A stretch of 64,000 bases of DNA from Rhytidiadelphus loreus (Eukaryota; Streptophyta; Bryopsida; Hypnales; Hylocomiaceae): assembly GCA_947034895.1 (NCBI GenBank), contig OX344765.1, forward strand, positions 32,741,001-32,805,000. Direction: 5' to 3'. The first letter of the stretch is position 1, and each line of letters starts with the position of its first letter. Made by a program: the position numbers and the translations under genes. Shown one piece after another: positions 28,172-56,179 of the stretch. A model generated the notes under the pieces. The model did no database searches, was not told the origin of the DNA, and saw only the letters and a program-made list of their open reading frames with translations.

Positions 28172-28182
28172 CAGGGTTGTCT
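28172..28182 (+). repeat. Left terminal inverted repeat of the giant hAT
   Basis: CAGGGTTGTCT, the exact complement of 56169-56179. The first eight bases match the terminal repeat of the foldback element at 3556. Confidence 0.93.
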
Positions 28183-28342
28183 ACCTGGACAACTCGATAA
28201 CTCGACAAACTTGACGTCGAAGACGTCTAGTAGAGGGGCCCGTCCGTCTAATAGAGTCAACTTTACCCTTTGACTTTTCTGGAATTTACCCCCCATTTAC
28301 CTAGGCTTACCTGGCTGCCATGTGGCAGTCGCGTGGCAAATG

Positions 28343-28725
28343 TAAGGCGACCTCGGGTGAGGGCGACTTCGGGTAGGGGGTGACTTCGGGTGGGGCGACC
28401 TCGGGTGAAGGCGACTTCGGGTGGGGCGACTTCGGGTGGGGGCGACTTCGGGTGTGAGGCGACTTCGGGTAGGGGCGACTGCGGGTATGGGGCGACTACA
28501 AGTCTTAGGCGAACACGGGTACTAGGTCGCGGTCGCCGATACCCGCACCCGTCGGCGCACTTGCCCTCATCCAAGACCCGCACTCGCCCTTCGTTACTTG
28601 CACGCGCCCCCCCAGGACCCGCGGTCGCCCCTTCAGGACCCGCAGTCGCCCCCCCAGGACCGCTGGTCGCCCCTCCAGAACCGCTGGTCGCTTACGTGAC
28701 CCGCACGCGCCCATTTTGCATCCAC
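28343..28725. repeat. GGCGAC-NNC-GGGT array, left end and upstream of cargo gene 1
   Basis: At 28343-28500 about ten units read GGCGACTTCGGGT or close variants. At 28545-28720 the array turns over and reads ACCCGCGGTCGCCC or ACCCGCACTCGCCC. The head-to-head layout ends about 215 bp before the cargo gene's ATG. The array lies inside the left terminus and also in the gene's promoter position. A transposase-binding or promoter role is inferred. An open frame from 28390 runs through it only because the unit has no stop. Confidence 0.85.
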
Positions 28726-28938
28726 ACCCGGGTTCGCCTATATATGAAGTCACCGAATCTTCATTCTCCCATGTTCATCACTAAGGCTTCTTGGCTTGTA
28801 TCCCTTTCTGGCTACATGCATAAGCATTTGGTGTTGAAAATTTACTATTTGACTACTTTCATCCAAGGTTCTTTTTCTAGTGGTTTGATTTCAACAATCC
28901 CTCTACATTTTTTAGGACCTTCATTTCAACAACCCACC

Positions 28939-30552
28939 ATGGCTAGTGGAGACAATACCACTGGAGAATTTCTTGCTGAAGCCCCTCCACCGGCTCCACG
29001 TCCACGTCGTGGTTTGGGATTGCGAAAGATTCAAAAAGACAAGGAATGGAAGCGTAGGGGTACTTGTCACCGAAAGCGATTGCATGTGTTGAATAGTGTT
29101 GACCACATTGCTTTCAAGGGGTGGAACGAGGAGCGTGAGCCATGGTCAATACAAATTTGCGAAGATTACATTGAGTGGTGCCACATCAGCAAGTTCTTTC
29201 CAGCATGGCGTCATCATCATCATCGACACACCAACAAGGCGAACTTGAAGTTCTGTGAGAATGAAATATTCGTGAACAGGTGCATTGAATTGTGGCAAGC
29301 TCTCTACAATACGACCTCTGTAGAAAAGAATGAGGCCCCTCTTTTCCTTGCCAGAGGAGCCTATGCTGAAGTGGCATTGAAGAAAGAAGTCGATTGGAGC
29401 ACGATCAAATCTAGTCCTCACGTAAAACGTCCAGAGGACGGGTGCATACCAAAAGGAATTCTCCTTTTTCCAGAGGGTGGATTGGGTCCTTTTCGAAGTG
29501 TTCCTAGGAATCAAGCCCAAGTTGAAATTGACACAGAGTCATCAGAAGAGGATGACAATTCAGATGGTACGCGGGTGCTTTGGGTAGAACGAGCCACGGA
29601 ACTACCTATCGGCCTCCCCCCAAATCAGAATGAAATTGTCCACGGCGTCGGAACATCACGGGGACGTAAATCGGGACAATCGTCAAGAGTGCGACGTTCC
29701 ACTACACGAATTGGACCACAAGGGGCTTCTCCATCAGCTTCGAATCCACCATTGCCTGCACAGAATCCAAGTGATGTCTTCGAATTCAGTTGCAACGATG
29801 AAGGGCCCAGTGAAACAATTGTTGGTGCACCAACTCTTCAATCCCGAGTGGATGTAGGTCACAACACTCTGACCCTAGCAAAGGCTCAAAACCTCATACA
29901 GATTAAAAACAACAAGATTGCTTCATTGGAAAGTGACTTGAAGAAATTGCAAGGACAGTGCCAACTGAAAGATACTCTCATTGCACGACAATCTACCGAG
30001 CTTCAAGCCCTGCGAGAAAATCAGGCTGGCGCTTTCACTTTGTCAGATATGGATGAGGCTTTTGTTGACCATGATCCACATCATCTAGACAAAGTTGTAG
30101 GGGACCTTACCGACGATGTTCCTTGCCATCCACCACCTTCCAAGCGTGCTAAGGTTTTGCAAAATAATCGAAGTGCGTTCCTCACTACGATTGGCGGAGA
30201 CACGACCACTGACACGAACGATATTCATGGGACCCAAGATTCACTCTCATTTCCAACAGTTCAACAATCAAGGCAGAGTGACAAAGAAAGAGACCTTGAA
30301 AAGCAGAACGAAAAGCTTCAACAACGGTTGGATCAATTGGTTGCCACGTACTACCATTGGAAGGTGGCGTGCATTCTCTCCGTGGACAGATCGCAGCAAA
30401 TAGCCAAGGAATTAGATAAGGTTTCAAAGAATTTTGTTGCAGCTTTACCTAAACGTGAGAATGGACTCACATCCTGGGCACTCTTAGATGACATGTTTCC
30501 TGAAAACATGCCGATGTTGGCAGACACAAATATTATAGATTGGGCACAATAG
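28939..30552 (+). CDS. Cargo gene 1: member of a new protein family, with coiled coil; stop may be a decay mutation
   Basis: The ATG at 28939 (context CACCATGG) is preferred to an earlier open start inside the GC-rich array. It encodes 537 residues. A basic head is followed by the domain shared with cargo genes 2 and 3: AFKGW near residue 59, YIEWCHISKFFP near 78, RG-AYAEV near 140 and VDW near 151. A Ser/Asp/Glu-rich linker and predicted coiled coil (about 314-365 and 440-470) follow. The frame meets TAG at 30550-30552 and continues without another stop through a RING finger to 31092. The stop may be a mutated CAG, a readthrough site or a true end. Function is unknown; if joined to the RING it would resemble an E3 ligase with a substrate-binding head. 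Confidence 0.78.
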   Translation: MASGDNTTGEFLAEAPPPAPRPRRGLGLRKIQKDKEWKRRGTCHRKRLHVLNSVDHIAFKGWNEEREPWSIQICEDYIEWCHISKFFPAWRHHHHRHTNKANLKFCENEIFVNRCIELWQALYNTTSVEKNEAPLFLARGAYAEVALKKEVDWSTIKSSPHVKRPEDGCIPKGILLFPEGGLGPFRSVPRNQAQVEIDTESSEEDDNSDGTRVLWVERATELPIGLPPNQNEIVHGVGTSRGRKSGQSSRVRRSTTRIGPQGASPSASNPPLPAQNPSDVFEFSCNDEGPSETIVGAPTLQSRVDVGHNTLTLAKAQNLIQIKNNKIASLESDLKKLQGQCQLKDTLIARQSTELQALRENQAGAFTLSDMDEAFVDHDPHHLDKVVGDLTDDVPCHPPPSKRAKVLQNNRSAFLTTIGGDTTTDTNDIHGTQDSLSFPTVQQSRQSDKERDLEKQNEKLQQRLDQLVATYYHWKVACILSVDRSQQIAKELDKVSKNFVAALPKRENGLTSWALLDDMFPENMPMLADTNIIDWAQ

Positions 30553-31092
30553 GGCTGGGACCATGCAAAGCAAATGTCTAGTCACATGGAGGTGAAGGAC
30601 CAAAAGCTACTATGGCCACAACCTACAGCTTTCGTACTCGACCATACAAAATGCCCCATTTGTCAAAAGCAATTTGGCCCTGAAGGTGGTTGGGCTCTCG
30701 GGTCATGTGCACATGTGTACCATCCTCAATGCCTCCTTATGGGATGCCTCATTAGACGACGTTGTGTACTTTGTTCAGCACCATTCCATGATCGCTTGTA
30801 TGCCATGTTCAACTTGATGACGTACATGCCACCTTCTTGGGAACGTAGCGTTGAAACGACGACTAATACAACACTGTGGGGTCGTGACCTCGTTTGGAGT
30901 TGGCGTCAAGGGCTACATGATGATGAAAAGGCACCTAGTAGCTCTCAATTGAACTGGGAAACTGACCCGGCGGAGATTGTCAAAGTGGCACCGAAGTTGA
31001 TGGGAAAAGGTCCACACAATGAAGGGAGAAGGGCATTCTTCTACCAATGCCTTGGTGGATACTTCGAGAAGAGCTCGGGAGAATTCAAATAG
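30553..31092 (+). CDS. RING-H2 finger module in frame with cargo gene 1
   Basis: It has the same frame as 28939-30549, separated only by the TAG; the first ATG after it is at 30589. The RING finger has the order C-x2-C-x14-C-x-H-x2-H-x2-C-x10-C-x2-C (from 30652), a full set of RING-H2 zinc ligands. About 110 residues follow without a known domain, with stop TAG at 31090-31092. RING-H2 proteins usually act as E3 ubiquitin ligases. As a separate gene it would lack an obvious promoter, so I favour its being the C-terminal end of cargo gene 1, as the RING-like finger is of gene B at 12953-14989. Confidence 0.72.
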   Translation, partial: GWDHAKQMSSHMEVKDQKLLWPQPTAFVLDHTKCPICQKQFGPEGGWALGSCAHVYHPQCLLMGCLIRRRCVLCSAPFHDRLYAMFNLMTYMPPSWERSVETTTNTTLWGRDLVWSWRQGLHDDEKAPSSSQLNWETDPAEIVKVAPKLMGKGPHNEGRRAFFYQCLGGYFEKSSGEFK

Positions 31093-32465
31093 GGTCCTCA
31101 TCCGGAAGGACACCGTTGTCGTGTAGAGAGAGTTTGCCTCGGGAAATCACGAGGATTCTGGCTGCGACTAGAAATGGCTCGGGAATGAAATAAATTGTAA
31201 CTTGTCGAATCTTCAAAACTTTGAGTCTTCAAATCTTCAAACTACTACTCGTTGTCCTATCCTGTTGTGTTTCTAAATAGGCCAAGGGTTAAGGTAGGGT
31301 GATAAAAAACCACGAGCTTCGGACGTGTAAAACGGGACGGTCAGACCACGAGCTGAGCCGTCCGAGGGATTGGATCCTAAATTTCAAACCCACGGTGACC
31401 AGCAAACTTGCCTCACCAGTGGGAACAACATAAAAGTCTCGACCATGTGGGCAATTAACCCCACTTCGTCACATCCACAACACCAAATGAGGCTAGTATT
31501 GGTGTGAACCAAACTGCCCGCAACAATAAAATGAAATTTACAAAGCCACAAGCCACACACACACAAACACACAAGTCTTCAAACTTCTTCAACTCCAACT
31601 CCAACTTCAAATCCCAAGCTGATCTTTGGATGAGTGTCTCTGTTGATCTATAACTCCAAATGAACTAAATGATAGCTTTTCGGAAAGTTAAAACAATCAT
31701 CTACTTCTCCTCTAAATTTCATACAATTCTAAGACTCTGTCCAACCTCTATGGCCATTCAAAGTTTCGGCCATGAGAAGGGAAAGGCAGCAGACCTTCCT
31801 TCGCTTCCACACTCACAACTTTCTCATACAAACTCCAAACAGAACGAATGATAGCTTCATGAAAAGCTAACACAATTTCCTACACTTCATTCAAATTTCA
31901 TGGCAAAACAAGAACCTGTCCGTCTTTTATGGTCGGTCGAAGTCTCTGCCTCTTAATTTTTAAAGGCAACAAACCTCCCTCCACTCAAACTAGCACAACT
32001 TTTGCTTCACAACTCCAAATCAAGCAAGTGAGATCAATTTGGAAACTACACACCATGATACACAACACCTCCAAATTTCATTTCAAAATACTTCAAATTC
32101 ACAACACAATGGGCCCTCAAACATTCGGGCCTTCCTAAACTCACAACAGGAGAGAAGATGAATAGTGTTCCCTTTTTTCTCCACCTTATCTCTACTCTAA
32201 CCACACAAACAAGTGGGGTCAGCCCCTAACTCACTCCCAAAGCTCTCACATCAATAATTGAGCCCTTATTTGACCCCACAACTATCTCTTTATCTTTATC
32301 TTAGAAAGAAAATTCACTTCAAATTCACCTAGAAGGAAAACTATTTCATTAATTCCTTTCTATCTTTTCTTTCTCTATTTTCAACACCCAAAATGAAATC
32401 TACAAACAACTAACATAAAATAAATGTCTTCTCAAAGGTAAAAAACTAAAGTCTTCAACGAAACT
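31093..32465. repeat. Non-coding stretch with three degenerate tandem units
   Basis: At about 31641-31815, 31822-32005 and 32007-32150 a unit of about 150-190 bp recurs, with cores ACTCCAAAT, AAATTTCAT and a Phe-rich-looking TTCGGCC tail. I see no gene. It lies in the shared 3' region of cargo gene 1 (plus strand) and the small minus-strand gene at 32466. Confidence 0.5.
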
Positions 32466-32924
32466 TCACTCCATCTTCAAGAACTTGAGAATTCGCTTGA
32501 TGGTAGTAGCAACAAACTCAACACGATCCGCCTTTGTCAAGGGATTGACCGGCCCCTCTAACCATCGTTGGTGACCGCGACTCCCTTTAATAGGCCTGAC
32601 CATACAATAGTATTGATCGTCGTTAAGACCTTCAAAACTCCCTTCGAATGTCACTTCTTGGGTACCAGGTTCAACACACCCAACCTTCAACAGGATCACT
32701 AGTGCTCGAGCTCCACGCTGTAGGTTCCCGTGCCATCGCTGCTCCACACGGGGTTGCTTTGGCGGTCGAGAAGGCCCAGATTCATCTTGAGGACGCTCGT
32801 GCGATAATGAAAGACCTAGCGGCTGAAGAGGTTGAGCCGGTAGTTGAGATAACGAAAACTCAAACTCCGATTCTAGTAGAGGCTCCTCATCCTGAGACTC
32901 AGAAAAAACCCTCCAATTCGACAT
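32466..32924 (-). CDS. Cargo gene 4: small unknown protein
   Basis: The ATG at 32924 gives 152 residues. An acidic Glu/Ser-rich N-terminus (about residues 5-30) is followed by a Pro/Arg-rich linker. The C-terminal half is globular-looking, with a GARALVILLKVG strand-like stretch, GLNDDQYYCMVRPIKG and a final amphipathic helix (VATTIKRILKFLKME). I recognise no family. Composition, length and the lack of repeats make it a credible gene. An upstream in-frame TTG at 32945 is not needed. It reads toward cargo gene 1, tail to tail. Confidence 0.55.
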   Translation of the reverse strand: MSNWRVFSESQDEEPLLESEFEFSLSQLPAQPLQPLGLSLSHERPQDESGPSRPPKQPRVEQRWHGNLQRGARALVILLKVGCVEPGTQEVTFEGSFEGLNDDQYYCMVRPIKGSRGHQRWLEGPVNPLTKADRVEFVATTIKRILKFLKME

Positions 32925-33107
32925 ACTGAAATCTATAACATACAATAAAGAAACTACTTCAAGTTTGGTGGTATTCTAAGATGATAACCTATTCTTATAT
33001 AGATGGCTCATGTCATCATGAGAAGGCGTCATCTTGAAGCTACTAAGGATGATGTCATCTTTATTTTTATATTATTAAAATCAAATCTATGGAAATAATG
33101 TATTACT

Positions 33108-33456
33108 ATGCATTTTTACACTATGTACGCATTTACAGTGCGACACCGTTGGGATAATGAAGGTAAAAGGGGACCCGATCGCAATCAATTTGCCTCTCTT
33201 GAAGACATGACTAACATGGCTTGCATGGACTCTACGTATGGACCTTATCACCAAAGTCAAGCATTCATTGGACTATCTTTTGGAAGCACATTCTCCACAA
33301 ACCACAAGGACCCTACAAGCTCTCCAAGATTCCAACGTCCTGGAATTCATTTTGAATGCGGAAGGGTCAGCTTCACGAACTCGTGCAAAGAAGAAGATAG
33401 TCCTTCAAGAGGCACTTCAACCTTCACATGGTGAAGCAAGTTCTTCTAAGAAGTAA
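33108..33456 (+). CDS. Doubtful short coding stretch
   Basis: Two overlapping frames are open. From the ATG at 33238 comes a 72-residue protein that looks helical and basic, ending in Ser/Lys; the other frame (33108-33434) gives 108 residues of weaker composition. The start may be supplied by an upstream exon (an acceptor-like TTTACAG ends at 33137). I cannot decide whether this is a terminal exon or chance. Confidence 0.25.
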
Positions 33457-33459
33457 AAA

Positions 33460-35417: not shown

Positions 35418-36902
35418 CTACTTTCTAAAAACCTCTTTTTGGTTTAGGAAGTCACTCATATTAGGAGGAGGACCCACTTTCTCGTATTCTTCACCTCTCT
35501 TTCCCGTTGTATCCTTCATCCACTGCGTATAATACTCGCTTTCGGCTCTCAGATCCACAAACTCGTCTTCCAACACTTGTACTCTAGTCTCATGGAACTT
35601 CACCAAATTCCGAAGCATTTCTAACTCCTCTGGTAGATTACCGTATGTCGAGGCCGTTGCCAAAACGTCCACCTCCTTGACATGTTTTTTGGCCGCTTCG
35701 TAATATTTCTTTTCTTCTTCGGTAATTTGAACACGCAGTGCTTGCCGCTCATTCTGTGCTTTCCTACGTCTGCGTTGCAGGGTTTCTAATTTTGATTCCC
35801 ACAATAAACAATGGTCAGCTTGCGACAATTTCCCGGTGCTCTGCTTAGTTAAATACTGGTCTCCATTCTTCTTAAAAGCAACAAAATCGTCATCTCTCTC
35901 TTTGAGTATTTGGTTGAGAGACCTCAATTGTTGCTTCAAATAAGCTTCAGTGGGAGAAGACACTTCGCGTTCCTTCAAATTCTTCAGTTCCTCACTCTTT
36001 GTACTCAATGATAAACGTTCACTCTCGATTTTGGCAATTAAGGTCTCCTCATTGTCTGATGAATCACTATCACCTTCTAGCATCGCACACTCCTCTATGG
36101 AAAAGTCCTCCACTTCCATGGGGTCAACTTTTTCCAAGACTTCTTCATGGCTAGTTGAGGTAATGGGCTCTTTTCCACGATCTTTCTTCTTCTGAAGGCC
36201 CACATCGAAAGACTTCTTGGACTCGGTGACAAAAACATCTTCATCATCGCTAGAGAAGGAATATCCGTTGTACTCATGGGTGTGCTCGTCCGAGGAAGAA
36301 GTGGAAGACCAAACTACTTCTTCATCAGCAACAAATGATGCTCCACGCTTAATTAGTGTCATCATCTTGCTTATATCAAGAGGATACTTTGCCCACAAGT
36401 TGGAGGCTTCCTCCCACTCTTTTTGGTCCGGACGGACCGCAATAGGCATTTCTGGGAGTGTTGTCCAATCGACTACCTTCTTCAAAACAACTTCGGCATA
36501 CACCATTCGTACAAGAAAGAAACTGAAATTATCGTTTCTGTACACCTTAGTCTCCAAATATAGAAGGGTCCATACTTCGCAGCATCTACGCATGAACCTT
36601 GTGTCCGTAGCATACGCAAGGTTAACCTTTTGGTTTTGAACGTGCAAAGGGTGACGACACAACGGAAATAACTTGCTGATGTGGCACCAATCCACATACT
36701 TCGCAACAGTCCGGTAACTCCAAGGCTCTGGTTCATCCCTCCAACCCTTAAAAGCCTTAATCTTCGGATGAAGTAATATGGCCATGCGCTTCTTGTGCTT
36801 CTTGCCTGACCGTTTTCGACCCTTGTCTTTCATCGCCATTTTCTCTTGCGGAGTCAATGGAGTAGGTATGGTAGGAGGAGATGGCGAGGTCGTACGCTCC
36901 AT
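35418..36902 (-). CDS. Cargo gene 2: new-family protein with coiled coil
   Basis: The ATG at 36902 gives 494 residues. A basic KKHKKR-like patch (about residues 30-40) is followed by the shared domain: AFKGW near 50, YVDWCHISKLFP near 70, VRMVYAEVVLKK near 130 and VDW near 143. An acidic Ser-rich linker and a long coiled coil (about 290-470) follow. The TAG at 35418-35420 is followed in frame by only five codons and a TGA, so no RING follows here. It is transcribed away from the array at 37290-37535 and mirrors cargo gene 3. Similarity between the two is plain in the first 150 residues and weak later. Function unknown. Confidence 0.82.
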   Translation of the reverse strand: MERTTSPSPPTIPTPLTPQEKMAMKDKGRKRSGKKHKKRMAILLHPKIKAFKGWRDEPEPWSYRTVAKYVDWCHISKLFPLCRHPLHVQNQKVNLAYATDTRFMRRCCEVWTLLYLETKVYRNDNFSFFLVRMVYAEVVLKKVVDWTTLPEMPIAVRPDQKEWEEASNLWAKYPLDISKMMTLIKRGASFVADEEVVWSSTSSSDEHTHEYNGYSFSSDDEDVFVTESKKSFDVGLQKKKDRGKEPITSTSHEEVLEKVDPMEVEDFSIEECAMLEGDSDSSDNEETLIAKIESERLSLSTKSEELKNLKEREVSSPTEAYLKQQLRSLNQILKERDDDFVAFKKNGDQYLTKQSTGKLSQADHCLLWESKLETLQRRRRKAQNERQALRVQITEEEKKYYEAAKKHVKEVDVLATASTYGNLPEELEMLRNLVKFHETRVQVLEDEFVDLRAESEYYTQWMKDTTGKRGEEYEKVGPPPNMSDFLNQKEVFRK

Positions 36903-37254: not shown

Positions 37255-37535
37255 GGGAGGGCGAGTGCGAGTCTCCCGACCGAACAAGGGCGACTACGGG
37301 TACCCAGGCGACCACGGGTCCACAAGGCGACCGCGGGTGCGGATCCCTGGGCGACTTCGGGTGCGGGTCCCTGGGCGACTTCGGGTGCGGGTCCCTAGGC
37401 GACTTCGGGTGCGGGTCCCTGGGCGACCTCGGGTGCGGGTCCCTGGGCGACTTCGGGTGCGGGTCCCTAGGCGACTTCGGGTGCGGGTCCCTGGGCGACC
37501 GCGGGTGCGGGTCCCTAGGCGACTTCGGGTGATTT
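37255..37535. repeat. GGCGAC-NNC-GGGT array upstream of cargo gene 2
   Basis: About ten units of 24-25 bp with alternating GGCGACTTCGGGT and GCGGGTCCCT lie 350-630 bp upstream of the gene, which reads leftward. Two units at the left end have the variants GGCGACTACGGGT and GGCGACCACGGGT. Open frames on both strands here are artefacts of the repeat. Confidence 0.85.
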
Positions 37536-38340
37536 TTCAGGCAAAGACAAATAAAAGAGGAATCTAACACAAGTGGTTTCATATTTTTGGAAGTATTTTA
37601 TAATTACTTATAAATTTTCAAAGGACTTCTGTCATAGGTCCCTATTTATGCCCCTAGGTCTTCTGCAAAATGTTCACTTGCAACTTCTAAACATAAATGG
37701 GAAAGTAAAGATAATGGATTGGCTCTTACAATTCATAATTTTTTTTTCTCGAATCATTTAATGATTATGGAGGTCAATTTATGAACTACAGATTGTCCAT
37801 TTCAAAGCCACTTATAGAGTCCATTATTAATGCCCGCTCCATTTCAAAGTCTTCTACCTTATCTTTACTTTCACATCCACACAAATGGAGAAAGGAACCC
37901 TCCTTAAAATCCAATGGACATCGGATTTGGAGAAACTCCCCAACTAAAAAAATATTTACGATAGTGTTTCCTTGAGTGTCAAATGCTTCAATGCACACCC
38001 TTGCCTGAGCAAAAAAATTTATGTATCAATGAATAGGTGGTAGTGAAATCGTGGGCCACCATAATTAAAAATATTCCCAACCTGTAATGAGTTTAATAGC
38101 TATTCAAGTGATATTAAGTTTTGGAAGAGAACATTTTAGAGTGCCAATATAATTTGTAGTTCTTCATTTCACCTTCAATCCCAATTTTCTTTTATAAGCA
38201 ATACAATCAATAAAGAAAATGAAAATTTTCTTGGTTATCATCTCACAACTCTTATCCAATTTTGCACTCAAAGGAAACGTGCATACTAATACGCAACTAC
38301 ACAAGCTAATTAAACATTCATACGGTTAGATTTTCGGGTT
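37536..38340. repeat. Repeat block with copies at 40540-40930 and 47460-48200
   Basis: Segments around TCAAAGGACTT, GGTCCCTATTTATG and TTGCAACTTC match in reverse complement at about 47930-48110, and a third copy lies at 40540-40930. It carries no convincing gene. It belongs to the nested inverted duplications around the kinase gene. Confidence 0.65.
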
Positions 38341-39440
38341 ATAAAACTTGCTTCAATGGCAATTACTATAAGTCCATGCTCAATTTTCATAGGAAAAATA
38401 CAAGAGGGAAAGGCTTAAGGCACTTAGGACTTTATTAGTAATGCACTCTAATTGTTAAGTTAAACTTATCTTTTGACCCTACATAGATTAAGCAAACACC
38501 CGTCTTGTAAAATCAAATTTCATTCAGAAGTATTTATTCGTCATTCTCCATAATGACGAACAAATCTAATTAAATAATGATTTACCACAATTGAATTCTA
38601 AAATACTCTATATCATTACAAATTAGATACTTTAAAGTTTCAAAAAATCCCGTGAAGACCTCGGTATAGGCCACGCGACGTGCTTCGAGGATTGAGCCAA
38701 GGACCACTTTGAATTCCGCACCGAAATGTTTTTCATCTCAGTGCGCAATTCAAAGTGCCACTTGACCAAACCTGTAAGACCCAACCATAACCTCCTATAT
38801 CATGCACACGGAGTTGGGAATCGAACCGTAGACCTCCCAGACTCCACTTGAGTTCGAAGAAATTGACCCTTGTGTGAGAATCCCTTCCACTACTTCACCT
38901 TCCCGTTGGTCACATCGGGAATCACCTTTGATGCACCACTCCTTGTCCATCCCATCTTTATTCTTTTTTTTCTTTGATTCTATTGGGCTTCAAAATACCA
39001 TCAGCTGCCCAACACGAAATAGTCTCAACGTTTGGACCCGAAGTCGCCCCACCCGAAGTTGCCCTACCCACGGTCGCCTAAGTCCCAGAAAAGAGGGAAG
39101 CAAAAATGCGTGAGTTCTTCCCTCCTCTCTGGACCCGCGGTCGCCCTACCCGAAGTCGCCCTACCCGGAGTCGCCCCACCCGAGGTCGCCCCAGCACCGC
39201 AGAAAGAAGTCCCTAGTTTCCCCCTTTTCTGGACCCGCGGTCGCCTCACCCGCGGTCGCCCCTACATTGGTATTTGAAAGAGTGACTTACAGAAGACTGC
39301 AGTCATGGTAGGTGAGATCATAGAATAATCTCTAGATAGCTTACAATTATATCACATGATCATTTTATTAAATGGTCCCTAACAAGGCTTCAATATCCTC
39401 AAGCGCTACAATGATGAACCAAAAACCCTACAAAGCCCTT
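38341..39440 (+). repeat. Complex repeat R, copy 1 (hairpin, tRNA-promoter-like box, array)
   Basis: Contains, in order: a lead with TCCATGCTC and ATGCACTCTAATTGTTAAG; a 67-nt hairpin (38698-38764); a reverse-complement match to the tRNA B-box (38817-38827); and a GGCGAC-type array (39037-39262). An end segment, ATATCACATGATCATTTTAT, follows. Copies 3 and 4 (44700-45900 and 46200-47460) are in the opposite orientation. Confidence 0.75.
38698..38764. repeat. 67-nt hairpin, copy 1
   Basis: The two arms of about 27 nt pair at 22 positions around a TTTTTC-containing loop. Equivalent hairpins of exactly 67 nt occur at 41234, 45473 and 46996, with different stem sequences. Confidence 0.7.
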
Positions 39441-43698: not shown

Positions 43699-44699
43699 TG
43701 TGATAGAAGAATACCATAGTATCATTTTGGAGTAGTACTTCTAGTACATGTAATCAAATTTTAATATGAAGTGCCATTTTCCCCAAATTGGCAATATTGT
43801 GGATCTATTCTTCATGGTATGTTGTATTGAATCTCTCATATCAATGTTTGTATTTTGCTGCAATGAATGAATTAAATAGGCTCAATGTTCCAGTAAGATA
43901 TCCTACAGTAAGATATATAGCCTTGGAATAATGGAGCCCATTTTCCTTCTAAAAAGCATTGACAATCGGCACTTGTATTGGTTCATCTGGCAAAAAAGGA
44001 TGACTTTCTTGTAATCTTAATAGGTTTTTGGCAATAAAAACGACATTTCTCAATTGGTTTGAATGGGCCAGAAAAAATGGGAACATAAGGGTTAAATGCA
44101 ATACACCATTTTTAGGTGAAATTAATTTCACCTTTATATGTAATAATTACGTTTTCTCTAAACAAAACCATTTTGGTCTACAAATTAAAAATTAAATTTT
44201 GAATTTGCCTTTTAATGTTTCGCAAAACATTTTTACAAAGAGTACCTTGAAGGCTTCTTCCAGGTTCATTACTTTTGAATACAAGGTCAAAATATTCTTG
44301 CAAGATCTATATGTTTGAGCCATAATCGAAAACTAATAAAAGTTTCTTTAGATGTGAATTTAACCCCTGAAGTTCGAAGGCCATTATAGGTTCAGAACCA
44401 CTAAAAACCGTCACTTTGGCTACTTTGAGAAAAAATCTTGAAGTGCATTACAATAAGAGTGCATTAATTATTAAGCCCTATGTGCCTAAGCCTTTCCCTC
44501 TTGTATTTTTCCTATGAAAAAAAAACATGGACTTACAGTAATTGGGATTGAAGCAAGTTTCCTATTTATTTTTTAATCTAACCGTATGAATGTTTAAACA
44601 ACTTGCTTGTTAGTAGGCACATATAATGTTGACTTCTTGTACAATTTAAAGAAAATTCATAAAACATCCTAAAATGCATTGGGCATTTGAGGGTTACAG
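43699..44699. other. AT-rich non-coding stretch after the kinase gene
   Basis: No gene seen. Fragments resemble the AT-rich blocks at 34000-35000 and the lead of repeat R (TCTTGTATTTTTCCTATGAAA at about 44500). Confidence 0.55.
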
Positions 44700-45900: not shown

Positions 45901-47460
45901 TTTTTGAATCTAACCGTATGAATGTATAAAGAACTTGCTTGTTAGTATGCACATTAATTTTGAGTGCAACATTGCGTAACTGTTGTAAGATTATAACAAG
46001 AGAATAAGAGAAATGTACATTTTTACTTCAAGTGTATTATCCCCCTCCACAACAATTTGATAATTTGCACAAATAAAGTTTTTTGGCATTGGAGGAAAAA
46101 TGAAGAAGTACAAAGAAATTGATTCTATAATTCAAAATGTTGGCTTCTTGTTGATGTTAAAGCACACTCATAAAACATCCTAAAATGGGTTGGGCATTCA
46201 AGGGTTTAGGTTTGGGTATAGGTTCTAGTTTGCGAGGGCTTTGTAGGGTTTGGAGTTCATGATTGTAGGGCTTGAGGATATTGAAGCCTTGTTAGGGACC
46301 ATTTAATAAAATGATCATGTGATATAATTGTAAGCTATGTAGAAAATATTCTATGATCTCACCTACCATGACAACAATGTTCTCTAAGTGACTCTTTCAA
46401 ATACTGATGTAGGGGCGACCGCGGGTGGGGTGACCGCGGGTCCAGAGAAGGGGGAAATTGGGGACTTCCTTCAGCAGTGCTGGGGCGACCTCGAGTGGGG
46501 CGACTTCGTGTGGGGCGACCGCGGGTAGGGCGACTACAGGTCCAGAGAAGGGGGAAATTGGGGACTTCTTTCTGCGGTGCTGGGGCGACCTCGGGTGGGG
46601 CGACTTCGGGTGGGGCGACCGCGGGTCCAGAGAGGAGGGAAAAACTCACGCATTTGAAATTCCCTCTTTTCTGGGACTTGGGCGACCTCGGGTAAGGCGA
46701 CTTCGGGTGGGGCGACTTCGGGTCCAAAACGGGGAGACTAATTTTTGTTGGGCGGCTAATGGTATTTTGAAGCCCCGTAGAATCAAAGAAAAAAATGAAT
46801 AAAGATGGGATGGACAAGGAGTGGTGCATCGAAGGTGATTCCCGATGTGACCAACGAGAAGGTGAAGTAGTGGAAGGGATTCTCAGACAAGGGTCGACTT
46901 CTTCGAATTCAAGTGGAGTCTGGGAGGTCTACGGTTCGATTCCCAACCCGGTGTACATGATGTACGAGGTTCTGGTTTGGGCTTATGGGTTCGGTCAAGG
47001 ACCTGTTCGACCTCCGCAGTGAGATAGAAAACATCTCACTGCGGAGGTCGAGGAGGTCTTTGGTCAAACCTTCGAAGCACGACACCTGGCCTAGACCGAG
47101 GTCTTTACGGGAATTTTTGAAACTTTAAAGTAACTAATTTGTAATGATATACAGTATTTTAGAATTCACTTGTGCTAAATCATTATTTAATTAGAATTGT
47201 TCGTCATTATGGACAATGACGAAGATGTACTTGCGAATGAAATTTGATTTTAGAAGAGGGGTGTTTGCATAATCTATTTAGAGTCAAAAGATAAGTTTAG
47301 CTTAACAATTAGAATGCATTACTAATGACCCCCTAAGTGCCTATGCCTTTCCAACTGTATTTTTCCTTTATGAAAAGAGCATGGACTTATAGTTATTTCC
47401 ATTGAAGCAAGTTTTATGAAACAAGAACCTAACCATAGGAATGTTTAATTAGCTTGTGTA
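45901..47460 (-). repeat. Complex repeat R, copy 4 (inverted)
   Basis: Same as copy 3: array at 46411-46715, B-box GGTTCGATTCC at 46933-46943, hairpin at 46996-47062 with a GC-rich stem pairing 27 of 30 positions. It is close to copy 3 in sequence and lies next to it as a tandem pair, mirroring copies 1 and 2. Confidence 0.75.
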
Positions 47461-48420
47461 TTAGTATGCACGTTTCATGAAGGTGCAATATTGGATAAGA
47501 GTTGTGAGATGATAACCTACCAAATTTACTTTTTCATGGTTGAGTGTATTGCTTATAAAAATAAATTTGGGATTGGAGTTGAAATGAAGAACTACAAATT
47601 ATATTGGCACACTAAAATGTTCTCTTCCAAAACTTAATATCACTTGAAAAAGCTATTAAACTCATTACATGTTGGGAATATTTTTAATTGCGGTGGCCCA
47701 CGATTTTACTACCACCTATTCATTGATACATAAATTGTACTTCCTTTCTCCATTTGTGAGGATGTGAAAGTAAATATAAGGTAGAAGGCTCTAAAATGGA
47801 GTGGGCATTAAAAATGGACTCTATAAGTGGCTTTGAAATGGACAAACTGTAGTTCATAAATTGACCTCCATAATCATTAAATGATTCGAGAAAAAAAAAT
47901 TATCAATTGTAAAAGCCAATTCATTCTCTTTACTTCCCCATTTTTCTTTAGAAGTTGCAAGTGAACGTTTTACGGAAGACCTAGGGGCATAAGTAGGGAC
48001 CTATGACACAAGTCCTTTGGAAATTTACAATTAATTAAAAAATACTTAAAAAAAATGAAATCACTTGTGTTAGATTCTTCTTTTATTTTTCTTTGTCTGA
48101 AAAATGATCTAAAAATATTTTCATTGAAGTAAATACATGAAAAAGGGAGATCAGTCTTGAGATGAGCCATTTGTGAGGGCCAGGGTGAATTGACTCCCTC
48201 ATTGCCCATCCAGGGCTTGCCCTAGAATTTATTATTTGCACTGCTTAATTTTTGGGGGAATTCTGAAATCATATTTGCAATCAGAGGCCCCAAATTACTT
48301 CTAGGAGATGCAAGAATTACTCAAAAGTTGGCAGAATATAGGGGGCTTTTTTTTAAAATCTAAGTTGACGGGGGCAATGAGGGGGTCAATTCTCCCTCTG
48401 CATTTCCTGAGTCTACTACC
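47461..48420. repeat. Repeat block mirroring 37536-38340
   Basis: Reverse-complement partner of the block left of repeat R copy 1, including the AGGGGCATAAGTAGGGACC segment near 47985. No gene seen. Confidence 0.65.
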
Positions 48421-48424
48421 TTTC

Positions 48425-48612
48425 CTTGGACCCGCGGTCGCCCTGAAGCTGCACGCGCCCTTCCAAGACCCGCGGTCGCCCCACCCGCGGTCGCCCTGAA
48501 GCCACACGCGCCCTTCCTGGACCCGCGGTCGCCCCACTTAACGCACTCGCCCCCCTAAACCCTGATCCCGCACGCGCCCAGGGCGACTTCGGGTACAAAT
48601 GCGGTCGCCACG
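48425..48612. repeat. GGCGAC-NNC-GGGT array upstream of cargo gene 3
   Basis: Units reading ACCCGCGGTCGCCC and CACGCGCCCTTCC, then one turned-over unit GGGCGACTTCGGGT, end about 180 bp before the ATG at 48792. Same layout as upstream of cargo gene 1 and the kinase. Confidence 0.83.
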
Positions 48613-48791: not shown

Positions 48792-50186
48792 ATGGCCCCC
48801 CCCTTTAAGAAGGCAAAGAAGAAAAGAGAGCGCCATAGTCGGAATGTAGCCATCCTTTTGGACGCAACAGCAAGGGCATTTCCAAATTGGCAAAACGTGC
48901 AATCGGATTGGACGTTCAACACTTGCAAGGCCTACGTAGGGTGGTGCCATATCGATAAGCTATTCCCTTACTTCCGGCACGATGTCCATATCAGCCAAAA
49001 CAATGCTAATCTTCACTACTGCAGAGATGATGCATTTGTGCAACGGTGCATCGAAGTTTACCGGACATTATATCAAAAACCAACAGTGAAGGGGAGTCAA
49101 GTTTCATTCGGTATATGCCAAATGGTCTATGCAGAGCTACAATTGCGACGAACTGTGGATTGGAGGACCATTAAGAAAAACCCCAATAGCATAGTTCCCA
49201 CTACCAAAGACATTCCAAGGGCGGATCCATCAAATAATCCGAGGGATGGATTAGGGCCCAAAAAACATTTCAAAGAAGAAGTGTCGGATGAAGACTACGA
49301 TTGGGGCCAATCGTCCACCTCCACCGACTCGGATGAAGAAGACATTGCAGACCCTATGCCCCCAAATGAAGATCCAATACTTGAAGAAAATATGGCAGCG
49401 GTGGTACCTTTTGTTGGAGACTCAGAAGGGGCAGTAGTATTGCATGTCGCGCCTCTTAGATCGTTGGAGCCAATGCACTTCCGTCATCCTGAGGAAGACG
49501 AAGTTCTTCAACATGTATATGCACGCATGCGAGAAATGGAGGAAGACAAGGAGGAGGGCGAGATCGGGTTGCAACGAGATGCTGAACAAGCATTGGTGAT
49601 TTTTGATTTATGTGAAGAACTACCTCTTCAAGAAGCAGGAAGGGAAGTATTATATCTTGAAGACACGAGGAGGCAAGGAAAAGAAGCTTATAAAGTCCAG
49701 TTGAAGGCTATTCTTGGTAGACTGGTAGAAATAGAAATGGAATGTGAAAGGCAGCGTGAACGCATTGGTGGTGACATTGAGGACAACGATGAGCACACCC
49801 TTGAAGTACTAATCATAAGCGGGAAAGTTCGTTTGTCAGTTCAACAAAAGGAAATGGACGAGCTGGAGCAATTTTATTTGAAATTCAATAAAGGCAAAGA
49901 TGGAGGCTCTACCTCAAATTCCACCCCGTTCTTGGATAAACGAATGGCCAAAATAATGGAAGAGTGTTTGGCAGAAGAAAACCGATTGAATACCGAAAGG
50001 AAAGCTGTGGAAGAGGCGCAGTCAAGGTTGAATGACCTAAAAGAAACCACGATTGTAGGCCCCATTGACCTTCCAATGGCTTTGGATGCATTATTAGTAG
50101 ATGAAGAGCATTGTGTGCTGACATCAGAGGTAGCTTCCTTGAAGCAGAAGTTAGTTTCTTTGAAGAAGCTTGAACACCAGTTTTAG
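48792..50186 (+). CDS. Cargo gene 3: new-family protein with coiled coil
   Basis: The ATG at 48792 (context CACCATGG, as in cargo gene 1) gives 464 residues. A very basic head (KKAKKKRERH) is followed by the shared domain: YVGWCHIDKLFP near residue 50, VQRCIEVYRTLY near 90, MVYAELQLRR near 110 and VDW near 121. Acidic linkers and long coiled coil (about 230-460) follow. The frame stops at TAG 50184-50186, then stays open for 60 more codons of protein-like, charged sequence to TGA 50367-50369. As in cargo gene 1, the TAG could be a mutated CAG or a readthrough site. No RING follows. It mirrors cargo gene 2 about the kinase. Confidence 0.82.
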   Translation: MAPPFKKAKKKRERHSRNVAILLDATARAFPNWQNVQSDWTFNTCKAYVGWCHIDKLFPYFRHDVHISQNNANLHYCRDDAFVQRCIEVYRTLYQKPTVKGSQVSFGICQMVYAELQLRRTVDWRTIKKNPNSIVPTTKDIPRADPSNNPRDGLGPKKHFKEEVSDEDYDWGQSSTSTDSDEEDIADPMPPNEDPILEENMAAVVPFVGDSEGAVVLHVAPLRSLEPMHFRHPEEDEVLQHVYARMREMEEDKEEGEIGLQRDAEQALVIFDLCEELPLQEAGREVLYLEDTRRQGKEAYKVQLKAILGRLVEIEMECERQRERIGGDIEDNDEHTLEVLIISGKVRLSVQQKEMDELEQFYLKFNKGKDGGSTSNSTPFLDKRMAKIMEECLAEENRLNTERKAVEEAQSRLNDLKETTIVGPIDLPMALDALLVDEEHCVLTSEVASLKQKLVSLKKLEHQF

Positions 50187-51540: not shown

Positions 51541-51544
51541 TTTA

Positions 51545-51832
51545 TGCACATGAAGTCGCCCTTCTTTCCCCCAAGGTCGCCCATGGCACTCGAAGTCTCC
51601 CATGAAACCCGAAGTCGCCCATGTGGGACCCGAAGTCGCCCATCTGAGACCCGAAGTCGCCCATCCGGGACCCGAAGTCGCCCTCCCTGGACCCGCGTTC
51701 GCCCTATTTCGAACCAGAAGTCGCCTGCCGGAACCCGCGTTCGCACCATGTGACCCGAAGTCGACTACTGCAAAGGTGCGCGCCTCCATATGCCTGGAGG
51801 TGGACCAGCGGTCGGGTAGGGCGACCTCGGGT
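51545..51832. repeat. GGCGAC-NNC-GGGT array upstream of the transposase
   Basis: About nine units of ACCCGAAGTCGCCC with 6-10-bp spacers, then one turned-over GGGCGACCTCGGGT at about 51819-51832. It ends about 295 bp before the transposase ATG. This makes the array a shared feature of the transposase and cargo promoters. Confidence 0.85.
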
Positions 51833-52126: not shown

Positions 52127-55117
52127 ATGGAAAACCGAGGAGCGGGGAGGAGGACGAACATAAATGATACTCGAAGAGCCACAAAGGAGTGGGATCCCTG
52201 GTTGGTTATTGAAACAAACCCCGCTCGTTCCGCAAATACGAGGACTTGTATTTTTTGTGGTTGGAACAAAGTTTTCGTGCGGAAGCGGGCATTTGGTCAC
52301 TTTGGTTACCCCCGTACATCAACAATGGAACGTTGTAAACGTATTCCATCCGTAGTCCTTGAATTATTCAGAAACTGTGAAGGGATTGTACCAAAAGAAA
52401 TGAGTTTGGAGGAGATGCATGGAGTAGATCTTGAGGTTGATGTTGTTGCTGAGTCCGTTGCAGGGTATACTGTGGATGCATCAGTGGAAGGGTCTGTGGA
52501 CCCAAGCGACAGGACAGAAGCACCTAATGCACCGCCTCGTAATCCAGATTCAACGAATTCTACTCCTGTGACGGTGAGAAGGATGCGCTCAACCTCGATT
52601 TCTCGTCAACAAAGCATGGATGAATCATTCCGGGTCAATGAAAGACAAAACTTGGACAGACTATGGGCTTCTTTCTTTTATGAGGCTAACATTGCATTCA
52701 ATGTGGTGCGGCACCCAGCCTTTGTGAATGCTGTGAAAGCAACTTCGACATGTGGATTTCCATATTCCCCGCCATCGTACAATGCGGTGCGCACTAAACT
52801 ACTTGATGTGAAGAAGGAGGCTGTTACGAAAATGGTCAGTAGTCGAACAAAGAGTTCTATTACCCAATATGGAGCCACTATCTGTTCAGATGGATGGTCA
52901 GATACGAATCACCGTCCCTTGTTGAATATGATGCTCGTTTGCCCTGCGGGTGATGTCTTCCTGGGATCGGTTGACACCACAGGAGAGAGGAAAGACATGG
53001 CGTATACGGTGAATACAATGGCTACCTACATAGAGCAGGTGGGACCAGGAAATATTGTCCAATTGTGTACAGACAATGCTTCCGTAATGACAGGGTCAAT
53101 GCGCGAGTTGCAAGCAAGGTATCCCCACATGTATATGCAAGGATGTGCCGCACATATATTGGACTTACTTTTGGAAGACTGGGGAAAGGAAAAAAGGATC
53201 AAAGATCTAGTGGATAAGGCCAGGGCAATTGTGAAGTTTATAAAGAAATACCACTTGACTTTGGGTCTTTTCCATAAGTACTCGCCGAAGAAGTCATTGA
53301 GACTTCCCACGGCCACACGCTTCGCAGTGCATTTTCTCATGATAGACCGTTTGGTAGAGTGCAAACAAGCGCTTCAATTCGTGGTGGGGGACGAGACGTA
53401 TATGCCATTTGAGAATAGTTTGGTCAGCAGAACAAACGGACTCATTACAAGAGAGTGGGCCCGTAAAGCGCGAGAGGACATAGTTTCGGAAGTGTTTTGG
53501 GTGGAATGCGGTAATTTCCAGCACATGGTTCTTCCAGTGATTCTTGCTCTACGCCAGTTCGATGGCAAAATACCGGCGATGCCGAAAGCTTGGATAATAA
53601 TGAGTAGCCTTCGTCAGCACGTGTGCACTTTAAAGGAGGCTCCGTTCTTTCTTGATGAGCAGACCGCGACGAAGTTCCTAAAACAATTTGATGCTCGTTG
53701 GAAGTTGATGCGCACGGACCTCCATTATGCAAGGGCATTGTTGAACTCGTATTTGACAGATGTGGAAGAGCTTCATAACAATGGAGAGGCAAAGCGGGCA
53801 TTGAATCGAGTCATCAGAAAATTGAGCGGACCATTGAATGTGGATGAAGATGAAGCAATTGCTGAGTTGACGGAATTTGAAGAGAAGTCGGGTCCCTTTG
53901 ATCCATTACAAGAGGCTCCAGATGTTACTCGATGTAACTTGTTGCCTCATCAATGGTGGAATTGTGTGGGTGGGAACGCTCTTCCAAAAATAGCAAGGAG
54001 AGTTTTGTCTCTAACATGCTCAACATCATCTTGTGAAAGAAACTGGAGCATGTATTCGTTTGTACACGATAAAGTGCGTAATCGCCTAGCCACAAAGAAG
54101 GCTGAGATGTTGGTGTATATCTACACCAACAGCAAATTGGAACGTGAAAAACAAGGACACAATCCAGCACTATTCTACGAAAAGTACCTTGTAGATGGAG
54201 ATACAGATGAAGAGAATGAGGAACCATATTCTTCGGGGGACGAAGATGAAGTTAGGTTTAGAGATTTGAGAGAAGAACAGAGACGTGTGGTAGTAGAAGA
54301 ATGCCACCGTGGAAATAGGTGGGCTGGTATGGTGCCCCGTGTAGGTAGTCCTCCACGAGGACGATACCACAACACTTTCGTGGGTGATGATGATGGATTG
54401 AGCTCTCCAGAGGCGTCGCACCACCGCAAAGACGAAGCCCCTCATGTGTCGGCTTGGGATGCATTTCCGGTAATCAATGCAGACCCAACGAGGAAAAGAA
54501 CTCCTGATGACAACAATGACGGTGCAGATATTCCAGTGGCAGATGAAGTGGAGCTTGTAAGGTCTCCAATTGCCACATGTCTGCCGCCTAGTATGCCAAT
54601 GAACCTTCGAAGTGGTGCACGAGTTAATGTACAGGGTGAAAGGCAAGAAGAGGTGTCGCATATTGAAGAGGTACCTGCAGTTCGTCCAAGTTTAGCACCG
54701 ACCAACAACACTGCAACAGAAACTAGGGTGTACGATTCAGATGCGCCATTGCAAGTGGTATTCAACGAGACCCGTACCCGTGGGTCCAATCGCCCTGCAA
54801 GTGTAGACATTGCCACAACATCGAGGATACTACCAACTCCTCTAACAAGGTCACCGATACATAATGATCTACGACAAATCGTTGATGAAGGAGTGCATGG
54901 CTCAGCTCCACAACCTACTCCGGCCTCGTTGATGTCAGGCCCTGGAGAATCATCCATCCATTTGTCATTGGAGAACGAAATTCCACTTGTAATCCTTGGC
55001 CATCAAGCGCAGCAGCGAGAGCAGAGCGTCAACATGTTGGGCAGCAGGTGCTTGAGCGACCGACAGGCCCTATTATCAATGGAACCACTGATGCATCGAG
55101 GCCGACAAAGCGATTAG
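52127..55117 (+). CDS. hAT-superfamily transposase of the giant element
   Basis: The ATG at 52127 gives 996 residues. A BED-type zinc finger begins near residue 40 (C-x2-C at CIFCGW, later H and C). The RNase H-like core has D255 (CSDGWSD), D316 (LCTDNAS) and E637 (CERNWS), the three catalytic acids expected of hAT transposases. The C-terminal hAT dimerisation region lies around residues 610-665 (LPKIARRVLSL to KKAEML). After about residue 700 it is acidic and disordered. The enzyme would cut at the CAGGG ends and leave 8-bp duplications, as seen at both ends of this element. The core frame is intact. Near 54950-55040 the frame appears to shift, so the last residues before TAG 55115 are probably out of frame. 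Confidence 0.92.
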   Translation: MENRGAGRRTNINDTRRATKEWDPWLVIETNPARSANTRTCIFCGWNKVFVRKRAFGHFGYPRTSTMERCKRIPSVVLELFRNCEGIVPKEMSLEEMHGVDLEVDVVAESVAGYTVDASVEGSVDPSDRTEAPNAPPRNPDSTNSTPVTVRRMRSTSISRQQSMDESFRVNERQNLDRLWASFFYEANIAFNVVRHPAFVNAVKATSTCGFPYSPPSYNAVRTKLLDVKKEAVTKMVSSRTKSSITQYGATICSDGWSDTNHRPLLNMMLVCPAGDVFLGSVDTTGERKDMAYTVNTMATYIEQVGPGNIVQLCTDNASVMTGSMRELQARYPHMYMQGCAAHILDLLLEDWGKEKRIKDLVDKARAIVKFIKKYHLTLGLFHKYSPKKSLRLPTATRFAVHFLMIDRLVECKQALQFVVGDETYMPFENSLVSRTNGLITREWARKAREDIVSEVFWVECGNFQHMVLPVILALRQFDGKIPAMPKAWIIMSSLRQHVCTLKEAPFFLDEQTATKFLKQFDARWKLMRTDLHYARALLNSYLTDVEELHNNGEAKRALNRVIRKLSGPLNVDEDEAIAELTEFEEKSGPFDPLQEAPDVTRCNLLPHQWWNCVGGNALPKIARRVLSLTCSTSSCERNWSMYSFVHDKVRNRLATKKAEMLVYIYTNSKLEREKQGHNPALFYEKYLVDGDTDEENEEPYSSGDEDEVRFRDLREEQRRVVVEECHRGNRWAGMVPRVGSPPRGRYHNTFVGDDDGLSSPEASHHRKDEAPHVSAWDAFPVINADPTRKRTPDDNNDGADIPVADEVELVRSPIATCLPPSMPMNLRSGARVNVQGERQEEVSHIEEVPAVRPSLAPTNNTATETRVYDSDAPLQVVFNETRTRGSNRPASVDIATTSRILPTPLTRSPIHNDLRQIVDEGVHGSAPQPTPASLMSGPGESSIHLSLENEIPLVILGHQAQQREQSVNMLGSRCLSDRQALLSMEPLMHRGRQSD

Positions 55118-55320
55118 TGCTAGCCGAAGTTGTTGGTGGTTTAGAAACGCAAGTGCAAAATTTGAACTCTGAGGTGGAACGTGAGGTGATCCTTCAACCT
55201 ACAAGCAGAGAGGATGATGAAAACGAGGTCTCAGGAGCTAGTGACAGTAGTGGGCCACATGAAGACACCGACCCCAATGCAGATGAAGCGGAAAGCGATT
55301 CTACCTTCACAATGTAATGT
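55048..55320 (+). CDS. Frameshifted C-terminal tail of the transposase
   Basis: One base out of phase with the main frame, this stretch encodes a Glu/Asp-rich tail with a short coiled-coil-like segment (ETQVQNLNSEVEREV), ending at TAA 55315-55317. Its composition continues that of the transposase tail, whereas the main frame here turns into unlikely sequence. A one-base indel, a programmed shift or an assembly error near 54950-55040 could explain it. Confidence 0.5.
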
Positions 55321-55845
55321 GTTGCATTATAGATGTGGAGGCCTTCAAATAGTACTATAAGGATTTAACATCAATGCCTTGTAGTGAAGATTTGTTGCCA
55401 AAGCTTGTAATGAAATAGGTAGATTTTGAATTTTGTGTAGTCCATCACTTGGCTTCACAAAGTCAGGAAGATTGTAAAAGGTACTTTGGTGTTGACGATG
55501 ATGATTAATGAAGGTATTCGTATTTTTTGCAAATAAGTGTGCAATTTCAAACAGGAGTGGTCTTGGTACTCAATTGTGAAGATCATCCCTATGTATGTAC
55601 GCAGTTCCATTTAAATTAATATGATTATTGTCCAAGGTTTTTATTATTATTATTATGTTTTAGACTTATGAATTGATTGTCCCATGATATATCATTATAT
55701 AATGCATGTTCATTTGCTTTGGTACGTACCGAGCATATAATTCAATGCTTATATATTGCCGATTTGCCGTGGAATGTGTTGGTTGAAGAATAAATATTGG
55801 AAAAAAAATGTTGTGGAGGCCCCAGACTTGTAGCCCATGAAGTAG
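55321..55845. other. Non-coding 3' region of the transposase gene
   Basis: About 520 bp of AT-rich sequence with no gene seen; presumably the 3' end of the transcript. Confidence 0.6.
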
Positions 55846-55995
55846 GACCCGCGGTCGCCCTGGATTCGGACCCGCAGTCGCCCAGGATTTTGGACCTGAG
55901 GTCGCCCTACCCGTGGTCGCCCCCCTACCCGCGGTCGCCCCTACCCATGGTCGCCCCCCTACCCGCGGTTGCCCCTACCTGTGGTCGCCCCTCAG
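55846..55995. repeat. GGCGAC-NNC-GGGT array at the right end
   Basis: About eight units of ACCCGCGGTCGCCC or close variants in inverted orientation to the left-end array at 28343. Subterminal position on both ends supports a role in transposase binding (inferred). Confidence 0.83.
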
Positions 55996-56168
55996 GAAGC
56001 ACGCCACGTCACAGCCACGTAGGACAGTCCGTTTTACCAAGGGGTAAAAAAATTTGAAATCCAAAATCCGTACACGACAACAAAAACCGCCCTTACTCGA
56101 CAACTCGACAATTCGACATGCGACATGCGACGTCTATTAGACACAAAAACTCGAAATTCTGTCAGACA

Positions 56169-56179
56169 AGACAACCCTG
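56169..56179 (-). repeat. Right terminal inverted repeat of the giant hAT
   Basis: AGACAACCCTG, exact complement of 28172-28182. Just inside are TCGACAACTCGACAATTCGAC repeats resembling those inside the left end. Confidence 0.93.

Follow-up and report, generated by a model that had tools for sequence, protein, structure and literature searches.

A 28-kb multi-gene hAT element with gene-oriented motif arrays in the genome of the moss Rhytidiadelphus loreus

Textbooks present hAT elements as small transposons that move by cut-and-paste, and members of the superfamily such as Ac, Hermes and Tol2 have short terminal inverted repeats (TIRs) beginning CAGGG. To our knowledge, no giant cargo-bearing hAT class has been described in plants. 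Here we analyse a stretch of 64,000 nucleotides from the moss Rhytidiadelphus loreus (assembly GCA_947034895.1, contig OX344765.1, positions 32,741,001 to 32,805,000 of the forward strand; hereafter the window), in which a hAT element of 28,008 bp occupies positions 28172-56179 and carries a protein kinase gene, a RING gene and two coiled-coil genes in addition to its transposase. Tol1 (4.4 kb) and Tol2 (4.7 kb) encode a transposase (PMC10175614), and the fungal ToxhAT is a TIR-bounded element of 14 kb, with 74-bp TIRs about 92% identical, that holds a hAT-like transposase together with other genes including ToxA (PMC6737239). The VANDAL transposons of Arabidopsis possess VANC motifs in tandem arrays of a single orientation in non-coding regions (PMC5735166; PMC10398659), and the binding of VANC to its motif has been measured (PMC5735166). 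Starships are giant elements with many cargo genes and are classified by their tyrosine recombinase (PMC12134995), Pack-TYPE transposons are non-autonomous (PMC8903248), and Teratorn uses piggyBac (PMC10175614). In the titles and openings of abstracts covered, the open-access literature yielded no plant or algal hAT that is both giant and multi-gene.

The element is delimited by exact 11-bp TIRs, CAGGGTTGTCT at 28172-28182 (plus strand) and its reverse complement at 56169-56179 (minus strand), which are flanked by exact copies of the 8-bp target-site duplication (TSD) GTGAACGT at 28164-28171 and 56180-56187. These boundaries had been proposed in a preliminary description made from the sequence of the window, and they are confirmed here. 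In a scan for 8-bp duplications that required at least three different letters and excluded palindromes and low-complexity targets, this is the sole pair in the window combining an exact duplication with a TIR of at least 11 bp, and the longest TIR in each of 30 Markov shuffles measured 7-10 bp. No 10-bp tip with up to one mismatch was found inside the element. The claim that the surrounding retroelement frame continues across the junction also holds, as the flanks, joined with a single TSD copy, read through as an uninterrupted retroelement frame of 645 codons.

A comparison of the joined flank (225 nt) with its own genome gave 40 scored matches. Of these, 37 are 91-96% identical and span 222 nt or more; 36 show no net length change and one is shorter by 1 nt. 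Two of the remaining matches span 45-225 and one spans 1-132. At all ten flank loci that were fetched the target site is single, and a 60-nt stretch spanning the junction aligns gap-free with 3-6 mismatches. These loci are paralogous empty sites within the same genome, and they show that the element was inserted; the preliminary description had suggested looking for empty sites in related strains. Two directly repeated segments, 16069-18862 and 61213-64000, which are 2.8 kb or more in length and 96-99% identical, are read as the long terminal repeats of the retroelement hit by the giant hAT, and the gag frame of this host retroelement contains three TGA codons.

Further copies were sought in 407,041,205 bp of genome in 489 contigs, where the 11-bp tip occurs in 671 + 682 exact copies compared to 24 + 43 for the same letters in reverse order. 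Ten neighbouring plus/minus tip pairs, 15-40 kb apart and all on contig C1, were chosen by eye from 100 listed places. Six of them show exact, mutually different 8-bp TSDs together with one left-type and one right-type end of this family, their lengths being 26,449, 26,094, 29,637, 25,928, 26,086 and 39,526 bp. Same-tip copies of 20-40 kb with 8-bp duplications therefore do exist in the same genome, the preliminary description having suggested a search for copies of 20-35 kb. Because these copies bear different exact 8-bp TSDs the sequence inserts as a unit, and 28172-56179 is a single hAT element. Its canonical size is about 26 kb, compared to the 28 kb of the window copy.

The window element and its six sisters (family A) have an identical five-gene set in the same order and orientation, namely the RING gene, coiled-coil gene 2, the kinase, coiled-coil gene 4 and the transposase, as well as identical positions of the motif arrays described below, with 87-125 motif copies per element. 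The recurrence of these genes in all six sisters makes it very unlikely that the element is a misassembly or was delimited by a chance pair. The longer copies (E3 and E4) hold extra DNA, and in E4 the kinase and gene 4 are interrupted. Nested in the window copy itself is a non-core insertion at 31119-33141, about 2 kb long and accompanied by a junction duplication of about 10 bp; in DNA alignments this insertion is missing from two sisters (E2 and E5). An open reading frame (ORF) at 32469-32924 had been a candidate for cargo and was rejected, since it lies inside this insertion; among the six sisters it was found in E3 alone, at a different place.

Matches to the individual genes extend the family well beyond these seven copies. 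The genomic numbers are lower bounds, as the best candidates alone were scored, which favours intact copies; the copy in the window is itself counted, as are some close pairs of equal score that are probably duplicated segments. Gene 4 has at least 91 matches at 96-100% identity (66 stop-free), the kinase at least 79 at 98-100% (60 stop-free) and the transposase at least 46 loci at 97-100% (25 stop-free). Gene 4 lies on the same strand 3-20 kb downstream of 52 of the 79 kinase matches, compared to none in a control with a 1-Mb shift, and upstream of the transposase in 34 of 46 cases. Taken together, matches to the kinase, gene 4 and the transposase mark at least 119 loci.

The transposase gene (52127-55117, plus strand) matches the Pfam families DUF659 (PF04937, E 2.3e-36) and Dimer_Tnp_hAT (PF05699, E 4.6e-8), in line with the internal hAT transposase named in the preliminary description. 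Residues D258, D319 and E640, which we take to be the catalytic triad by comparison with Hermes, are kept in all 22 aligned sequences including the window copy, and the profile matches Hermes with E 0.0028. There are 90 relatives at E ≤ 0.001, plant sequences among them, with Physcomitrium the nearest named one. The window copy is without about 94 bp that are present in its sisters after residue 943 and ends in a different C-terminus. For the window copy, a Pfam threshold of E 0.1 gave no match to a BED-type zinc finger at the N-terminus; Cys/His residues are conserved in the A3 consensus.

Based on the 8-bp TSD, the short TIR of 11 bp, the dimerisation domain and the DDE residues, the element is assigned to the hAT superfamily. 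The transposase of VANDAL elements is of Mutator type, and Mutator-type elements have a MULE transposase and a duplication of about 9 bp; here a hAT transposase is combined with 8 bp. No tyrosine-recombinase captain gene was matched among the ORFs of the element that were scanned. Pack-TYPE elements have no transposase of their own, whereas a transposase gene, often with stops, is found in all seven elements.

The preliminary description had counted at least five other genes aboard. Extra genes are indeed present, four by our count, of which the RING gene is split by a stop. This gene (28939-31092, plus strand) encodes an N-terminal family domain, a coiled coil and a RING domain, with an in-frame stop at 30550-30552. 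The predicted RING finger is supported by a match to zf-RING_2 (E 4.2e-5), although its score in the window, 24.2 bits, is below the cut-off of 27.3; a relative on another contig (L001, see below) scores above it. The RING protein is likely a ubiquitin ligase. A stop is found at the 30550 site in two of the seven copies and not in the other five. The kinase gene (42058-43698, plus strand) stands as predicted, with a Pkinase match (E 3.8e-15), catalytic residues present and 74 relatives; G242, K267, E284, D381, N386 and D405 are kept in 20 of 20 aligned sequences, the window copy among them, and E441 in 19.

Cargo gene 2 (f35418; 35418-36902, minus strand) and cargo gene 4 (f48711; 48792-50186, plus strand) each encode an N-terminal family domain followed by a coiled coil. 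The frame of gene 4 comprises 491 codons in the window and 552 in most copies. The new gene family of the preliminary description exists in the form of three diverged members. Two of them are the RING-less proteins; the third makes up the N-terminal part of the RING protein, where it is fused to the RING domain. Within the element the three are 24-33% identical. Across seven sequences 34 positions are invariant, and a protein search in which the 8000 best candidates were scored returned at least four relatives. The family has no Pfam match above the cut-off, gene 2 included, and no PDB relative. Rfam gave no match at gathering scores.

A reassigned stop codon was considered on account of the ORFs ending in TAG and the TAG inside the RING frame, and was rejected because TGA breaks the retroelement frame and five of seven copies are stop-free at the RING site. 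TAG occurs at all six printed stop codons of the element (30550, 31090, 35418, 43696, 50184 and 55115) and outside it at 13691, possibly by chance.

The five genes and both tips share a CpG-rich motif, ACCCGNNGTCGCCC, which forms mirrored arrays at the tips and arrays before all five genes, mainly in the orientation of the gene. Searched as ACCCG(A/C)(A/G)GTCGCCC with up to two mismatches, the motif has 98 copies in the window, every one inside the element; there are none in the other 36 kb and 0-1 in Markov controls. All copies except one within gene 4 (97 of 98) lie outside the five reading frames. The left subterminal array (28345-28486, minus strand, nine copies) mirrors the right one (55847-55990, plus strand, eight copies). 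The arrays preceding the genes are located about 150-360 bp ahead of the ATG, at 28576-28712 for the RING gene (plus, four copies), 37259-37530 for gene 2 (minus, twelve copies, gene-oriented), 41531-41905 for the kinase (plus; 12 plus and 3 minus), 48430-48594 for gene 4 (plus; 4 plus and 1 minus) and 51548-51832 for the transposase (plus; 11 plus and 1 minus). Three more arrays, at 39036-39261 (plus, nine copies), 44904-45199 (minus, eleven copies) and 46413-46723 (minus, twelve copies), belong to repeat units (37532-41708 and 44450-48177) that are inverted around the kinase and 77-92% identical; no recognisable gene follows these three.

Genes 2 and 4 share 86-92% identity across 1.25 kb of upstream DNA, compared to 32% for their proteins; the upstream sequence is thus kept or homogenised as the coding sequence diverges. 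For CpG, the observed/expected ratio amounts to 0.91-1.21 within the arrays, compared to 0.57 for the remaining non-coding DNA of the element, a level as expected for arrays that would be unmethylated or freshly expanded.

Family A was compared with one copy of a second family in the same genome (family B; C1:26224877-26248263, 23,387 bp) that has the same 11-bp tip. Its proteins are 43% (gene 2), 53% (kinase), 43% (gene 4) and 67% (transposase, over 604 codons) identical to those of the window element; of the RING tail, a fragment of 46 residues is left, at 65%. The layout is that of the window element with the kinase inverted. Since family B shares the core at 43-67% identity, the core has long been associated with this hAT lineage. 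Between the families the proportion of nonsynonymous differences (pN) is 0.21-0.39 and that of synonymous differences (pS) 0.69-0.71. With one mismatch allowed, ACCCGNNGTCGCCC occurs 71 times in family B, with CA as the commonest central pair versus AA in family A. Its arrays before gene 2, gene 4 and the transposase are gene-oriented; that before the inverted kinase is mixed (6 plus, 5 minus), and its gene-nearest part follows the gene. At the left end of this copy (L051:634-3855; G000 C1:26225480-26228701) a 1,074-codon open frame encodes a different hAT transposase, 42% identical to that of the window, with a 19-bp array of another sequence close by.

Within family A the copies differ by 1.2-1.9% on average in pairwise comparisons, and pN/pS is 0.48 for the RING gene, 0.39 for gene 2 and 0.54 for the transposase (seven copies each). 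Copy E4 was omitted for the kinase and gene 4, as both are interrupted there. Sequences in the window frame are without a stop in five of seven copies for gene 2 and in five of six for both the kinase and gene 4, some with single-base gaps.

A more distant relative was found on a 6.3-kb contig filed under a cyanobacterial metagenome-assembled genome (L001). It contains in order the end of a related transposase (45%), a same-strand gene for N-domain, coil and RING in a single open frame of 875 codons, and at the contig end near this gene a GC-rich 21-bp tandem array, CCGTTCCCTCCCCATCCGCCC, at 6145-6291. The array has the same design as those of the window and a different motif. Its RING protein has best matches of 28-34% in the genome of the window, and for this reason the contig must come from another genome. 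A search of the window's genome (G000) with this protein gave at least 53 scored loci at 28-34%, with RING-gene frames of 694-824 codons, which perhaps represent further large families. One relative of the transposase (P0025) and one of the kinase (P0144) both lie on 15,563-letter contigs, which is no more than a hint of linkage.

The left part of the window contains a second hAT element (3556-9257; 5,702 bp) with the TIR CAGGGTTGAC and the TSD GACCGGTG. It interrupts a coiled-coil gene, the frame of which resumes on the other side, and it has no match to the transposase or cargo of the giant element. A 10-bp TIR beside an exact TSD, as seen here, also arose in 2 of 30 shuffles. The element has inverted arms of 1 kb and 99% identity (5264-6265 and 7277-8279), with plant-type telomere repeats (ACCCTAA / GGTTTAG) at 5727-5764 and 7778-7815. 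Genes of similar coiled-coil/RING-like architecture are found at 235-675, 2752-9814, 13163-14800 and 15477-15749, outside the giant element, perhaps as remains of another one; their comparison with its family gave an hhalign probability of 17.5% and E 0.0014, so that they may or may not be related to it.

Taken together, these data are best explained if the window element belongs to a family of giant hAT elements, about 26 kb long in canonical form, that move by cut-and-paste and have a fixed four-gene cargo core, an explanation to which we assign a probability of roughly 0.9. The element would be mobilised by its own transposase. The arrays probably bring all genes and tips under one DNA-binding activity, encoded by the element or by the host. 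We further propose, tentatively and by analogy with VANC, that the diverging coil/RING family may read the arrays and, together with the kinase, counter silencing, so that the element would stay unsilenced; the transposase would meanwhile cut the tips, and it may recognise the array sites too, or subterminal sites next to them. Equally tentative is the widest reading, a so far undescribed class of giant hAT elements with several families in more than one species and an ancient core, forming a self-contained regulon shielded from silencing, in which one motif array at each gene and at both tips would be read by proteins that the element encodes.

A number of observations weigh against parts of this interpretation. 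Four of the ten tip pairs have no TSD; two of these combine an A-type with a B-type end, one has two ends of one B type, and the fourth is the family B copy. Family B is represented by this single copy, which may be rearranged, given that a foreign transposase occupies its left end; a matching TSD is absent from it as well. The window-frame transposase is stop-free in one of seven copies, and the RING gene is without any in-frame stop in one of seven. Within family A, six copies each of the kinase and gene 4 give pN/pS values of 0.78 and 1.22, respectively; long-term constraint is clear, but these values do not show purifying selection on either gene in recent times. With regard to the arrays, the coil family matches no DNA-binding family, and the motif core is common to families A and B, whereas the motifs of VANDAL families differ. 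Recent expansion of the arrays can also preserve CpG, and the nearby cargo-free hAT has a CpG observed/expected ratio of 1.24 throughout. This second hAT also has a tip-mirrored motif of its own, GCGGACGG, with 34 copies and none elsewhere in the window.

The cargo might alternatively consist of host genes recently taken up by a normal hAT element in the manner of Pack-TYPE transposons, as riders without a role. Such gene gain is a described route for TIR elements (PMC13317346), and the within-family pN/pS near 1 for the kinase and gene 4 would be consistent with it. However, the genes are whole reading frames rather than fragments, they recur, in unchanged order and with the same arrays, in each of the seven copies and in family B at 43-67% identity with pN well under pS, and a link between transposase and RING gene is seen in the record from another genome, all of which make recent capture improbable. 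Even less probable is a composite block of two hAT ends or stacked smaller elements. Nested insertions do exist, both at 31119-33141 and in the longer copies E3 and E4, but within the element neither a 10-bp tip with up to one mismatch nor an 8-bp duplication pair was found, and six further copies with exact TSDs as well as the empty sites speak for one unit. A cargo of kinase and RING proteins is reminiscent of large DNA viruses, and the kinase matches phrog_2361 (E 1.9e-11); a virus-derived element might use hAT ends for integration as Teratorn does with piggyBac. Against this, the ORFs of the element that were scanned gave no capsid, polymerase or packaging match, and scans of viral_contigs, part of which used poorly placed patterns, gave no relative, which leaves a viral origin extremely unlikely.

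The arrays could alternatively be only binding sites for the transposase or promoter elements for host factors, with the cargo acting elsewhere, for instance on cell state or replication timing, and we regard this as having close to an even chance. The second hAT has subterminal arrays and no recognisable cargo, which means that tip arrays do not depend on cargo, and kinases and RING proteins are generic regulators. On the other hand, the arrays of the giant element also precede all genes and are mainly gene-oriented, and in family B the part of the array nearest the inverted kinase is inverted too; binding at the tips alone needs neither.

If the interpretation as a giant hAT clade is true, simple TIR transposons can grow large, gene-rich and perhaps self-regulating outside fungi. 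We would then be dealing with a multicopy hAT clade about five times the textbook size with a conserved multi-gene core, and with an independent case for testing the motif-guided anti-silencing known from VANC. It also raises the question of what role a kinase and a RING protein have for a transposon. The loci, at least 119, would amount to about 3 Mb if all are full length, and their genes could be annotated as host families.

Compared to known systems, the element resembles other hAT elements in its 8-bp TSD, short TIR and DDE transposase with a hAT dimerisation domain, and it differs from Tol1 and Tol2 by its size of about 26 kb, four more genes and gene-oriented motif arrays. The nearest published cargo-bearing hAT that we found, going by the available text, is ToxhAT, which likewise combines TIRs and a hAT-like transposase with cargo; it differs in being fungal and in its gene set, and the excerpts describe no conserved core in several families. 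With Pack-TYPE transposons the element shares the form of a plant TIR element with other coding DNA, and differs in that a transposase and whole genes are kept. The comparison with Starships made in the preliminary description is apt for giant size and cargo and fails for the enzyme, a tyrosine recombinase there and a DDE hAT transposase here. VANDAL is likewise a multi-gene DNA transposon with oriented tandem motif arrays in non-coding DNA near genes; no kinase or RING protein is named in the available parts of those papers, and binding to the motif, measured in VANDAL, is inferred for the window element.

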